NCBI RefSeq assembly: GCF_900107485.1
Contig: NZ_FNQE01000001.1
Span: 124,001-188,000, forward strand
Origin: Proteiniborus ethanoligenes
Lineage (GTDB): Bacteria; Bacillota; Clostridia; Tissierellales; Proteiniboraceae
Direction of reading: 5' to 3'
DNA length: 64,000 nt
In this document: piece by piece, positions 28,706 through 54,560 of the stretch
How positions within the stretch are numbered: position 1 is the first letter of the stretch
How the letters are laid out: the number at the start of each line of letters is the position of its first letter
The notes under the pieces: model-generated
The model's input: the letters and a program-made list of their open reading frames with translations, nothing else
Databases searched by the model: none
What the model was told of the DNA's origin: nothing
Translations under genes and position numbers: made by a program

Positions 28706-28793
28706 ATTATTTAAATAAGGGCAAAACTACTGAAAAGTAGCGACGCAAAGCTAGAGTCTAAAGCTACACCCTGTGGGGTAGCCATGATCGTTC
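28706..28793 (+). ncRNA. Cyclic-di-GMP-I riboswitch (GEMM-I) upstream of pilA
   Basis: The conserved core reads GGGCAAAA, then the P2 stem CTACT-GAAA-AGTAG with a GNRA tetraloop, then CGACGCAAAGC (the GEMM hallmark), then GTCTAAAGC and a P3 arm closing at GGGGTAGCC. The tetraloop and the receptor side of P3 have the spacing of class I aptamers. It lies between its own promoter and a strong terminator, so it should set pilA transcription by c-di-GMP level. Whether binding switches genes on or off cannot be read with certainty; other clostridial pilus systems are induced by c-di-GMP. Confidence 0.93.
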
Positions 28794-28834
28794 AGCTGCA
28801 TAAATAATTAAATATTATTTGTGCAGCTTTTTTT
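28794..28834 (+). terminator. Riboswitch expression-platform terminator
   Basis: 15-bp stem (28794-28808 with 28814-28828, one G-U pair) followed by seven T. It begins immediately after the aptamer and 110 bp before pilA, as expected of a transcription-terminating switch. Confidence 0.88.
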
Positions 28835-50389: not shown

Positions 50390-51283
50390 ATGAATATTTT
50401 AGATGAATTAAGTAAGTACAAAAGAATAGTTGACCTAGAGCTTGAGAAGGTTATGCCTAAGGAAGATTTTCCGCAGAAACATATTTTTGAAGCCATGTGC
50501 TATAGCATATTTGCTGGAGGCAAAAGACTAAGACCTGTTCTAACATTAAAAACAAGTGAATTAATTTCTGGCAGCTATGAGGATGCTATGCAAATAGCAC
50601 TAGGAATTGAAATGATACATACATATTCATTAATACACGATGACTTGCCAGCAATGGATAATGACGACTTTAGGAGAGGGAAGCCAACAAACCACAAGGT
50701 TTTTGGTGAGGACATTGCTATATTAGCTGGAGATGGACTGTTGAATCTTGCATATGAAACCATGCTAAACACTATTCCTTTGAACTCTCGTGATTATGTG
50801 AAATATATACTAGCAATAAAAGAGGTAGGTAAAGCTGCAGGTGTATTTGGCATGATAGGAGGACAGACAGTAGATATCAAAACTAATGAAAAATCCTTTA
50901 ATGAAGAAAGGCTAATGTTTATACACAATAATAAAACATCTGCATTGATAGAGGCTTCCATAGTTTCAGGTGCTATGGTTGCTGGAGCTAATGAAGAACA
51001 GATAGAGCATCTTAGAGAATATGGACGGTCAATAGGCTTGTGCTATCAAATCAGAGATGATATTTTAGATAAAGTAGGAGATAAAAGTCTTTTAGGGAAA
51101 AACACTGGAAGCGATGAGATTAACCACAAGCTAACCTACTTAAGTTTATTTGGAATGGATAATGCAATTATTAAAATTCAAAGCCTATATAATGAAGCTA
51201 TAGAATCATTATCCATTTTTGACAAAGAAAGAGTAAGATTCTTCAAGGAGCTTGCTAGCTATCTAGTCCATAGAGAAAGCTAG
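50390..51283 (+). CDS. ispA: Polyprenyl (farnesyl/geranyl) diphosphate synthase
   Basis: A 297-residue trans-prenyltransferase. First aspartate-rich motif DDLPAMDNDD after LIH, second DDILD after YQIR, and GGKRLRP, GGQTVDI and KTSALIEASI are all present. The length and the DDxxx(x)D form fit farnesyl or geranylgeranyl synthesis. It supplies isoprenoid precursors made through Dxs, encoded shortly downstream. OLE RNA genes follow ispA in many Firmicutes, as here. Confidence 0.95.
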   Translation: MNILDELSKYKRIVDLELEKVMPKEDFPQKHIFEAMCYSIFAGGKRLRPVLTLKTSELISGSYEDAMQIALGIEMIHTYSLIHDDLPAMDNDDFRRGKPTNHKVFGEDIAILAGDGLLNLAYETMLNTIPLNSRDYVKYILAIKEVGKAAGVFGMIGGQTVDIKTNEKSFNEERLMFIHNNKTSALIEASIVSGAMVAGANEEQIEHLREYGRSIGLCYQIRDDILDKVGDKSLLGKNTGSDEINHKLTYLSLFGMDNAIIKIQSLYNEAIESLSIFDKERVRFFKELASYLVHRES

Positions 51284-51373
51284 ATAAGTTAAGCAAACAA
51301 TATATAGAGTTAATATGCAAACAATATTGTTGTATTTCTGTGAAATATGATAAAAACTCGATTTTCAAATTAT

Positions 51374-51402
51374 TTGAAATAAAATATGGGCTATGTTATA
51401 AT
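51374..51402 (+). promoter_or_regulatory. Extended -10 sigma-A promoter for OLE RNA
   Basis: TTGAAA (51374-51379), a 17-bp spacer and TATAAT (51397-51402), preceded by TGT at 51394-51396, an extended -10. The predicted start is near 51409, matching the 5' end of the OLE fold. Confidence 0.82.
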
Positions 51403-51408
51403 AATTTA

Positions 51409-51979
51409 AGTCTGAGAGTGGTGCAGTATTCTAGTCAGTACAACTAATTTTGAAGGCGGGGCTAAAAATCCGTCAAAGGGCACATCGATGAAGTTCCTGG
51501 TTTCGGCTGCTGACGCCCAGTTGGGAGTCGTTTCTGGGAGTAAGGGGGATGGGGCGATCTGCAATGGCATGCAGGCGTTGACCCTACTCTCGTGGAGACT
51601 CGTACAAACTATTAACGGGATAAACCTGCATTGTGGTGCAAGCTACTTGCAGCGTAGCCTGCCTTGAGTGAAATAGGCGGAACATGGTTGTGGCTTTAGA
51701 ATCCATGGGCCCATGGAAGAAAGGCTTTGTCATCGAAACCTATTTTGCAAAAGAGGCTAGAAATTAGTATGGCTGTAGAGGAAATCTCCTAGACTGTTCT
51801 CATGGATGAGAAGTATATTTAGGATTACAGTGCGGACTAAGTGGCAATCTAGCCCTATTTTTGGCGACGATATAGAGATGAGATTAAAGGGAAACCGCTG
51901 GACTGGCGACGGACAGTTTTCATCTGGGAAATCCTGCTAGACCTTAAGCCGTAAAATTTACTTAATATACTACCACTCA
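51409..51979 (+). ncRNA. ole: OLE RNA (ornate large extremophilic RNA)
   Basis: A G/C-richer, non-coding block of about 570 nt between ispA and the gene for the OLE-associated protein OapA, the exact context known for OLE RNA. Conserved-looking stretches include AAGGCGGGGCTAAAAATCCG, AGTTGGGAGTCG, GGGGCGATCTGC, CTTGAGTGAAATAGGCGGA and GACTGGCGACGGACAG. The ends pair: GAGTGGT (51416-51422) with ACCACTC (51972-51978), extended by AGTA/TACT. OLE forms a membrane-associated ribonucleoprotein with OapA and OapB; loss in Halalkalibacterium halodurans causes sensitivity to short-chain alcohols, cold and Mg2+. Its biochemical action is unknown. Confidence 0.94.
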
Positions 51980-52014
51980 AATGCTGATAGCTTATGGCTA
52001 TCAGCATTATTTCT
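51980..52014 (+). terminator. Hairpin closing the OLE RNA transcript
   Basis: 12-bp perfect stem AATGCTGATAGC (51980-51991) / GCTATCAGCATT (51997-52008) with loop TTATG, then ATTTCT. The T-tract is weak, so some read-through to oapA is likely. Confidence 0.65.
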
Positions 52015-52048
52015 ATACATATTTATTGTAGAAATTGGAGGTTAGGCT

Positions 52049-52675
52049 TTGTCTCACAAAAATATGAAATTAAATAAGAATAAAAGAACAAATAATAATA
52101 AAGTGAAAAAAAGCAATAGAAAATGGGTACTTATTATTACACTATGGACTTTCGTCTTAGCAATAGGTGTAAGCTTAATATCTGAGGTAATATTGAGAAA
52201 CTTTAATATTTTTTTTGCATTCATTTGCCTAATATTTGTTATCATATTTGGAGTATTTTTTGATATAATTGGAATTGCAGTAACAGCTTCTGATGAAAAA
52301 ACCTTTCATTCTATGGCAGCTAACAAAATCAAAGAGGCTAAATATGCTGTAAAACTTGTAAAAAACGCAGGACGAGTTTCTAACTTTTGTAATGACGTAA
52401 TTGGAGATATAAGTGGAATAGTTAGTGGTGCTGCAGGAACAATAATTGTTATGAAATTAGTGAGTGAATATGGACTTACTAAGGGGGCTATATTAAGTGT
52501 AATAATGAGTGGACTTATAGCGTCTCTTACAGTTGGAGGTAAAGCTATTGGTAAGGAAATAGCACTTAAAAAATCCGATAATATTATATTTTTTACTGCA
52601 AAATTTGTAATGATATTAGATATAAAACTTAGAATAAATATATTACCTGAGCAAAAAAACAATAAAAACAAATGA
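52049..52675 (+). CDS. oapA: OLE RNA-associated membrane protein OapA
   Basis: A 208-residue membrane protein. A Lys/Asn-rich N-terminus (about 1-25) suits RNA binding. Then come helices at about 27-47, 52-76, and two more around 120-165 (IVSGAAGTIIVMKLV, ILSVIMSGLIASLTVGGKAIGKEIA). The stretch GVFFDIIGIAVTASDEKTFHSMAANKIKEAKYAVKLVKNA is characteristic of OapA and the related CNNM/DUF21-like transporters. The TTG start follows GGAGGT. It holds OLE RNA at the membrane. Confidence 0.9.
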   Translation: MSHKNMKLNKNKRTNNNKVKKSNRKWVLIITLWTFVLAIGVSLISEVILRNFNIFFAFICLIFVIIFGVFFDIIGIAVTASDEKTFHSMAANKIKEAKYAVKLVKNAGRVSNFCNDVIGDISGIVSGAAGTIIVMKLVSEYGLTKGAILSVIMSGLIASLTVGGKAIGKEIALKKSDNIIFFTAKFVMILDIKLRINILPEQKNNKNK

Positions 52676-52691
52676 AAGTAGGTTGAATACA

Positions 52692-54560
52692 TTGGAGAAT
52701 ATTCTTTCGAGATATAGCGATCTTAAAGACTTGAAGGCTATGAATATGGAAGAACTAAATACTCTTGCTGAAAATATTAGAGAATTGATTATAGAAGTAG
52801 TATCTAAAAATGGAGGACATTTAGCTTCAAATCTTGGTGTAGTTGAATTAACAATTGCTCTGCATAAGGTTTTTAATGGTGATTTGGATAAAATAATTTG
52901 GGATGTTGGGCATCAGTCTTATGTACACAAGATATTGACTGGAAGAAAAGAGAGCTTTCATACTATAAGAACGCATAAGGGGATTAGTGGCTTTCCTAAG
53001 AGAAAGGAAAGCAAATATGATATATTTGAAACAGGGCATAGCTCTACATCAATTTCTGCTGCTTTAGGATATGCTTTGTCAAGAGATATTATAGGCGAAA
53101 AGCATAATGTAATCAGTGTAATAGGCGATGGTGCTATGACTGCAGGTATGGCTTTTGAAGCTTTAAATCATGCTGGAGATACAGGGACTGATTTAATAGT
53201 AGTATTAAATGACAATGAAATGTCTATTTCTCAGAATGTTGGTGGTCTATCTCAATACTTAAATAGAATAAGAACTGCTCCCACATATTTTAAAGTAAAA
53301 GAAGATGTTGAAGCGATACTTAACAGCATACCTGGTATTGGGAAACAAGTTTTTAAAACTGCAGAAAGGGCAAAGGATAGCATTAAATATTTTCTTGTTC
53401 CCGGTATGTTTTTTGAAGAACTTGGATTTAAGTATTTAGGACCTATAGATGGACATAACATTAATGATATGATTCGCGAATTAGAAAGGGCAAAAAAAGT
53501 TAAAGGTCCAGTTTTAGTTCATGTTATTACTAAGAAAGGAAAGGGATATAAACCAGCAGAGGAGCATCCTGATAAATTTCATGGTTCGTCTCCTTTCAAT
53601 ATTGACACAGGTAAGCCTATTAACATATCTATTGAACCTTCTTATTCCGATATACTAGGAGACACATTAATTAACATGGCAAATAAGGATAATAGAATAG
53701 TAGCTATTACTGCTGCAATGCCTGAAGGTACTGGCTTGAGTAAGTATAAAGAAATACACAAAGATAGATTTTTTGATGTTGGGATTGCAGAACAACATGG
53801 TGTAACTTTAGCAGCTGGATTGGCATCTAATAATCTAAAACCCTATTTTGTAGTATATTCAACATTTTTACAAAGGGGATACGATCAAGTTCTTCATGAT
53901 GTATGCATCCAAAATCTTCCTGTTGTTTTTGCCATAGATAGAGCTGGATTAGTAGGAGATGATGGAGAAACTCACCATGGAGTATTTGATTTATCTTATT
54001 TATCTCACATACCGAATATTACAATAATGGCTCCAAGAGATAAATCGGAGTTTATACAAATGTTAGAGTTTAGTAAAGACTATAATGGACCATTAGCTAT
54101 AAGGTATCCAAGAGGAAACTGCTATGATTATATTGAAGAAAATAATAGAACAGATATAGAACTTGGGAAATCAGAAGTGCTAGTAAAAGGCAAAGATATA
54201 GCTATAATTGCCATTGGTGGAATGGTTGAAAAAGCTTACAAGGTTACAGAAGAGCTAAAAAGACAAGGAAGAAGTGTTACATTAATTAATGGTAGATTTG
54301 TAAAACCTTTAGATGAAGATTTGATTAAAAAGGTTTCTAATGAACACTCTCTAATTGTTACCCTAGAGGACAATGTAAAAACTGGAGGCTTTGGAAGTTT
54401 AATAAATGATATATTAGTACAAAGCAACTATAGGGGAGAAATATTGAATATTGCTTTACCAGACATATTTATTGAGCATGGAAAAGTTAATTTATTATTT
54501 AAACAATACAATATGGATGTAGAGGGAATATTAAATAGAATATCAGAGAAAATCAAATAG
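52692..54560 (+). CDS. dxs: 1-deoxy-D-xylulose-5-phosphate synthase
   Basis: A 622-residue thiamine-diphosphate enzyme that joins pyruvate and glyceraldehyde-3-phosphate, the first step of the MEP isoprenoid route. The TPP motif GDGAMTAGMAFEALNHAGDTGTDLIVVLNDNEMSIS, catalytic Glu in DVGIAEQHGVTLAAG, and DRAGLVGDDGETHHG are present. TTG 52692 is chosen with AGTAGGT nine bases upstream; TTG 52683 is an alternative. It feeds ispA upstream. Confidence 0.95.
   Translation: MENILSRYSDLKDLKAMNMEELNTLAENIRELIIEVVSKNGGHLASNLGVVELTIALHKVFNGDLDKIIWDVGHQSYVHKILTGRKESFHTIRTHKGISGFPKRKESKYDIFETGHSSTSISAALGYALSRDIIGEKHNVISVIGDGAMTAGMAFEALNHAGDTGTDLIVVLNDNEMSISQNVGGLSQYLNRIRTAPTYFKVKEDVEAILNSIPGIGKQVFKTAERAKDSIKYFLVPGMFFEELGFKYLGPIDGHNINDMIRELERAKKVKGPVLVHVITKKGKGYKPAEEHPDKFHGSSPFNIDTGKPINISIEPSYSDILGDTLINMANKDNRIVAITAAMPEGTGLSKYKEIHKDRFFDVGIAEQHGVTLAAGLASNNLKPYFVVYSTFLQRGYDQVLHDVCIQNLPVVFAIDRAGLVGDDGETHHGVFDLSYLSHIPNITIMAPRDKSEFIQMLEFSKDYNGPLAIRYPRGNCYDYIEENNRTDIELGKSEVLVKGKDIAIIAIGGMVEKAYKVTEELKRQGRSVTLINGRFVKPLDEDLIKKVSNEHSLIVTLEDNVKTGGFGSLINDILVQSNYRGEILNIALPDIFIEHGKVNLLFKQYNMDVEGILNRISEKIK

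Follow-up and report, generated by a model that had tools for sequence, protein, structure and literature searches.

Identity and setting of the OLE RNA

OLE belongs to a small group of large, highly conserved bacterial RNAs whose biochemical action is not known. A sequence-only reading placed such an RNA at 51409-51979 of the window (i.e. the whole 64,000 nt stretch of Proteiniborus ethanoligenes DNA analysed here). The locus raises the questions of whether it is OLE, how much of the class architecture it retains, and how the RNA and the protein gene behind it might be expressed.

When the whole window was searched against Rfam with cmscan, OLE (RF01071) was matched at 51402-51992 (+) over the complete model (positions 1-616), with 505.5 bits (E 2.5e-145) against a gathering score of 50 bits. 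The covariance-model check proposed in the sequence-only reading has thus been run and came out far above threshold, and the identification of this RNA as OLE is virtually certain. The window holds two Rfam matches in all, the other being a c-di-GMP-I riboswitch, and a permissive threshold gave no further Rfam match in 51300-52200. Covariance-model searching found one OLE copy in the 3.16 Mb genome and, run in the same way, none in any of 14 control genomes. The predicted arrangement of ispA, OLE RNA, oapA and dxs was confirmed by profile matches of the neighbouring genes, with xseA, xseB and ispA upstream of OLE and oapA, then dxs, downstream:

50390-51283, + strand: ispA, farnesyl diphosphate (FPP) synthase (NF045485, 337 bits, cut-off 275)
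51402-51992, + strand: OLE RNA, extent of the Rfam hit (complete RF01071 model, 505.5 bits)
52049-52675, + strand: oapA, encoding a CNNM-type membrane protein of 208 aa; hydropathy predicts four membrane segments (PF01595, 30.4 bits, cut-off 28.4)
52683-54560, + strand: dxs (TIGR00204, 852.7 bits)

The same association was found among relatives: OLE, whole or partial, lies just upstream of oapA in all 80 loci fetched by an OapA protein search. Among the relatives, the best scores came from Tissierellales (Sporosalibacterium, Thermohalobacter, Anaeromonas), and the two further genomes of the same genus in our sample both carry OLE. One survey counted 2,822 OLE loci (PMC11332333). The call at this locus is correct, and as an OLE locus it is ordinary; the window copy is one more representative of the class, to whose interest a conserved 3' hairpin, described below, adds somewhat.

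Some of the initial expectations about this copy did not hold. Its length of about 570 nt had been placed at the short side for OLE, which is not unusual: the P1-to-P1 span is 563 nt, and the C. acetobutylicum OLE solved by cryo-EM has 577 nt (PMC12286853). Nor is there support for treating it as a divergent representative that would help to define an essential core, as it scores 505 bits over the entire model and keeps every landmark examined except for part of one variable arm. That arm (approximately 51597-51620) is the single clear reduction among the helices, and OLEs without P7 and P8 have already been described (PMC11332333). The description of the host as spore-forming is plausible and supported at the gene level, because the window also contains spoIIIAA, spoIIIAE, spoIIIAH, spoIVB and spo0A.

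Structural landmarks within OLE

The following landmarks were located on the window sequence by alignment to the model and by comparison with published structures:

51416-51422, + strand: P1, 5' strand GAGUGGU (pairs with 51972-51978; covariation in 130 loci)
51458-51471, + strand: end of P4, A-rich loop, a published dimer contact (sequence present; contact from PMC12265935)
51513-51521, + strand: P5.1 loop GCCCA, a published dimer contact (sequence present; contact from PMC12265935)
51560-51572, + strand: P6.1 loop, the published partner of the other subunit's P5.1 loop (sequence present; PMC12265935)
51597-51620 (approximate), + strand: P7-region arm, about 20 nt shorter than the Rfam model (model alignment)
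51703-51716, + strand: end of P9.3 with the palindromic loop GGGCCC, a published kissing loop (sequence present; L9.3 GGCC palindrome from PMC12286853)
51861-51912, + strand: P12.2/P13 region with two GGCGAC segments, the published OapB-binding region (GGCGAC at both places; region from PMC9723947)
51972-51978, + strand: P1, 3' strand ACCACUC (partner of 51416-51422)

P1, which is left unpaired in the Rfam model, is 7 bp long in the window and corresponds to the closing terminal stem that had been noticed from the sequence. Across nine contiguous positions P1 is paired in 52 of 130 loci, compared with 6% in strand-swapped controls, and its middle positions show several alternative pair types among the 130 loci. 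This covariation supports P1 as a real helix of OLE. The sequences of the published contact loops are present, and by homology the window RNA would be expected to dimerise.

An anti-Shine-Dalgarno mimic, CCUCCU, has been described in P6 of Halalkalibacterium halodurans OLE as the bS21 site (PMC12054373). The exact motif is absent from P6 in the window, where CCUACUCU is found instead, and CCUCC occurs in the P6 3' strand (window approximately 51576-51595) in only eight of 65 parsed OLE loci. The mimic is therefore not class-defining, and it may lack generality across OLE RNAs.

Compared with full-length OLE RNAs (H. halodurans, Clostridium acetobutylicum, C. botulinum), the window copy shares the complete model match, the neighbouring genes, P1, the dimer-contact loops, the GGCGAC segments of P12.2/P13, the adjoining downstream oapA and the relatives of OapB and OapC. 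It differs in its short P7-region arm, in having no exact CCUCCU in P6, and in the sequence-conserved 3' hairpin between ole and oapA. The OLE variants have the OLE core in common with it, and variant 1 is likewise short in P7. Three parts that are reduced or missing in the variants are kept in the window copy, namely P8, the long P9 including its kissing loop, and the P13 region; OapB and OapC, largely absent from the variant clades, also have relatives in the genome of the window.

Protein partners encoded in the genome

The OapB relative is a 96-aa KOW protein encoded between map and infA, whose sole significant PDB match is OLE-associated protein B (7k9b, 1.5e-11). The OapC relative is an 86-aa L7Ae-type protein encoded between rpoC and rpsL, with YbxF-type proteins as its best PDB matches. 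There is one MpfA-like protein (transporter) in the genome, in agreement with the tendency of OLE species to have at most one (PMC11332333). By homology, the window OLE would associate with OapA, OapB and OapC in a membrane-bound particle. The OLE particle of H. halodurans supports growth in the cold, in alcohol, at high magnesium and when carbon sources are poor (PMC12265935). Taken as a whole the window OLE appears to be a full-length functional RNA gene; identity, context, P1 and the partner genes are the firm part of this description, and function is assigned by homology.

Predicted promoter and 3' hairpin

Two elements flank the RNA:

51374-51402, + strand: promoter-like site, TTGAAA-17-TATAAT preceded at the -10 by TG (agrees with the consensus at 11 of 12 positions)
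51980-52008, + strand: 3' hairpin AATGCTGATAGC-TTATG-GCTATCAGCATT followed by ATTTCTAT, probable terminator and OLE 3' end (fold energy, terminator scan)

Transcription from the upstream site is predicted to start at approximately 51409-51411, with which the start position of 51409 given in the sequence-only reading coincides. A promoter score of at least 10 was obtained for 68 of the 69 hairpin-bearing related loci with enough sequence, and for 44 of 61 loci without the hairpin, where positions were scattered; the score alone is weak evidence because shuffled sequence already averages a best score of approximately 8.4. The stronger part is the fixed position, i.e. in 48 of the 68 hairpin loci scoring at least 10 the -10 begins 16-18 nt upstream of the first position of the OLE profile. 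We infer that this near-consensus promoter drives OLE. In H. halodurans, ole lies inside a large operon yet also has its own promoter (PMC9723947). Six related loci (L049, L050, L053, L057, L061 and L062) show an operon-embedded layout that is the opposite of the window's: OLE is preceded by the apparent end of a coding gene with no clear promoter, and oapA follows closely behind OLE with no hairpin.

The sequence directly 3' of P1 is AATGCTGATAGCTTATGGCTATCAGCATTATTTCTAT (51980-52016). The hairpin within it, which lies outside the Rfam OLE model, folds at -18.7 kcal/mol (z -5.9) and was also picked up by a terminator scan. Its T tract in the window is weak (ATTTCTAT); across 75 hairpin copies the eight bases after the hairpin contain a mean of 5.9 T, and nearly all copies have a T-rich tail. 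Stem positions 2, 3, 4 and 8 are invariant in these 75 copies. The other stem changes preserve pairing, double changes at three pairs included, and mismatches total four, all at the loop-closing pair. Loop length ranges from 2 to 16, mostly 4 or 5. The variable spacing and the presence of G-U pairs indicate an RNA element and argue against a DNA operator. The hairpin most likely serves as a terminator and as the 3' end of OLE. Neither the hairpin nor any terminator 3' of ole is mentioned in the OLE literature examined, which consists of papers later than the founding ones. In five loci (L004, L006, L198, L268 and L270) a second, partial copy of the 5' arm is found downstream of the hairpin, past an AT-rich stretch; its pairing with the 3' arm and T tract could give a longer alternative stem.

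Distribution and conservation of the hairpin

The stem GCTGATAGC/GCTATCAGC is found behind OLE in many related loci. Its pattern has one site in the window's own genome and, in exact form, occurs in 43 of 199 genomes of the order, once per genome; we therefore rejected the idea that it is a terminator or repeat used throughout these genomes. OLE is present in 70 of the 199 genomes, among them 42 of the 43 with the exact pattern. Inspected singly, the remaining 28 OLE genomes comprised 19 with a variant of the hairpin and nine without it, so that the hairpin accompanies OLE in 61 of 70 genomes of the order (42 exact, 19 variants), compared with an exact hairpin in one of the 129 genomes that lack OLE. 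In a class sample of 391 genomes a relaxed pattern matched 13, and in nine of these the match sits exactly where OLE ends; a reversed control pattern matched two. The relaxed-pattern matches away from OLE (G487, G416, G331, G361) have no OLE on their loci and were set aside as chance or local hairpins. Outside the order the hairpin is found in some families only, e.g. relatives of Alkaliphilus and Natronincola, and most OLE lineages there are without it. An unrelated terminator-like hairpin occupies the same site in two OLE genomes of the order (L191, L200), as would follow if termination is what the different hairpins have in common, and unrelated hairpins are found at this site in several more distant loci as well. 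Two genomes (G062, G068) appeared to carry a split OLE at two distant loci (L183-L186); the pieces overlap, and those of G062 each end beside an N run, so the split was dismissed as an assembly artefact.

We compared the hairpin with the terminators of tmRNA and RNase P RNA in the same order, with which it has in common a GC-containing stem, a short loop, a T-rich tail and a place at the end of the gene for a non-coding RNA. Conservation of the OLE stem extends over many genera and families, whereas the stem of RNase P RNA is not conserved in this way and that of tmRNA only in part. A 7-nt stem word is shared by 71% of pairs of OLE hairpins, a set partly fetched by the pattern itself (the unbiased figure being the 61 of 70 OLE genomes), compared with 14% of pairs for tmRNA and 2.5% for RNase P RNA. 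Relatedness of the genomes was thus rejected as an explanation, and the stem sequence is, to judge from these comparisons, conserved beyond the need of plain termination. The tmRNA terminators (L203-L232) also show recurring stems, e.g. AACTCCTTG-ATTT-CAAGGGGTT, and some conservation of terminators is therefore not unheard of.

One genome of the order (G145, 88% complete) carries the hairpin without the RNA. At its locus (L187, G145:C19) ispA is followed by the exact hairpin (approximately L187:1961-1982) and then tlyA; ole, oapA and dxs are absent from this locus, and the genome gave no OLE match. The arrangement fits an OLE loss that spared the hairpin and, as a single case, suggests that the hairpin can serve alone as a terminator.

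Proposed expression of ole and oapA

In the window oapA starts approximately 40 nt behind the hairpin with no promoter between them. Across the hairpin-bearing loci the median distance is 43 nt, and a promoter-like site was found in three of 67 hairpin-oapA gaps. The order-wide picture is of an ole gene that looks self-contained, with a nearly fixed promoter, a nearly invariant 3' hairpin, and oapA behind it without a promoter of its own. Because ole looks self-contained and promoters in the gap are few, oapA and dxs would depend on readthrough.

These observations can be combined in a model in which a promoter inside the ispA-dxs cluster would give rise to the OLE transcript, and the RNA would fold, dimerise and join OapB and OapC in a ribonucleoprotein that OapA holds at the membrane. 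In this order the conserved hairpin would act as an intrinsic terminator that ends OLE, and oapA, then dxs, would be expressed by partial readthrough, or from transcripts that begin further upstream and continue past the hairpin. OLE would in this way remain more abundant than oapA mRNA. We consider this whole model (own promoter, functional OLE, hairpin as terminator and 3' end, oapA by readthrough) to be probable; the conservation and pairing of the hairpin are observed, and promoter activity, termination, readthrough and physiological role enter it as predictions from sequence. It amounts to a testable proposal about where OLE ends and how the ratio of OLE to OapA is set, through a 3' element that is not part of the Rfam model.

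The strength of the stem conservation raises the alternative that the hairpin is mainly a part of mature OLE, or a site for a trans-acting factor (protein or RNA), with the sequence conserved for this contact and termination secondary or regulated through it. The invariance of stem positions 2, 3, 4 and 8, the far more frequent sharing of stem words than among RNase P RNA and tmRNA terminators, and the nearly one-to-one association of hairpin and OLE would all be explained in this way. However, the loop and spacing are variable, G145 retains the exact hairpin behind ispA at a locus that has neither ole nor oapA, and recurring stem sequences are seen in tmRNA terminators of the order too. There is also no conserved complement of either hairpin arm recurring within OLE, on which ground we rejected an antiterminator as well. 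We regard this alternative as unlikely. The same low expectation applies to its more specific form, in which the hairpin is a sequence-specific regulatory element and a trans-acting factor sets readthrough from OLE into oapA in the order and some related families; if true, a factor-recognised hairpin would control the RNA-to-protein ratio of the OLE particle.

Much less probable still is a reading without a terminator, in which the inverted repeat that separates ole from oapA serves as an operator in the DNA or as a site of RNA processing. The repeat is a perfect dyad, and H. halodurans OLE is thought to be processed out of a longer transcript (PMC9723947). However, a spacer of 2-16 nt and G-U pairs speak against an operator, and nearly all copies are followed by a T-rich tail. 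The hairpin stem is also just ~12 bp. Such a stem is short for RNase III, which weighs against a processing site. That the window OLE is a decaying, non-functional relic has next to no probability: one arm is shortened (approximately 51597-51620), but the match is full-length and retains almost every conserved position, oapA is intact, the promoter and the partner genes are present, and both congeners of the sample have OLE as well. The terminator reading, with oapA expressed by readthrough, is therefore the one that we prefer.

Other RNA elements

The genome contains two tmRNA matches above the cut-off, at G000:C29:38112-38462 and G000:C3:130501-130840 (194 and 124 bits); the second could stem from a mobile element or from contamination. 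The c-di-GMP-I riboswitch of the window (28710-28803, + strand, 63.6 bits) lies upstream of genes for a prepilin peptidase and for a pilin-like protein that carries an N-terminal methylation motif, and for this reason it probably controls type IV pilus genes.
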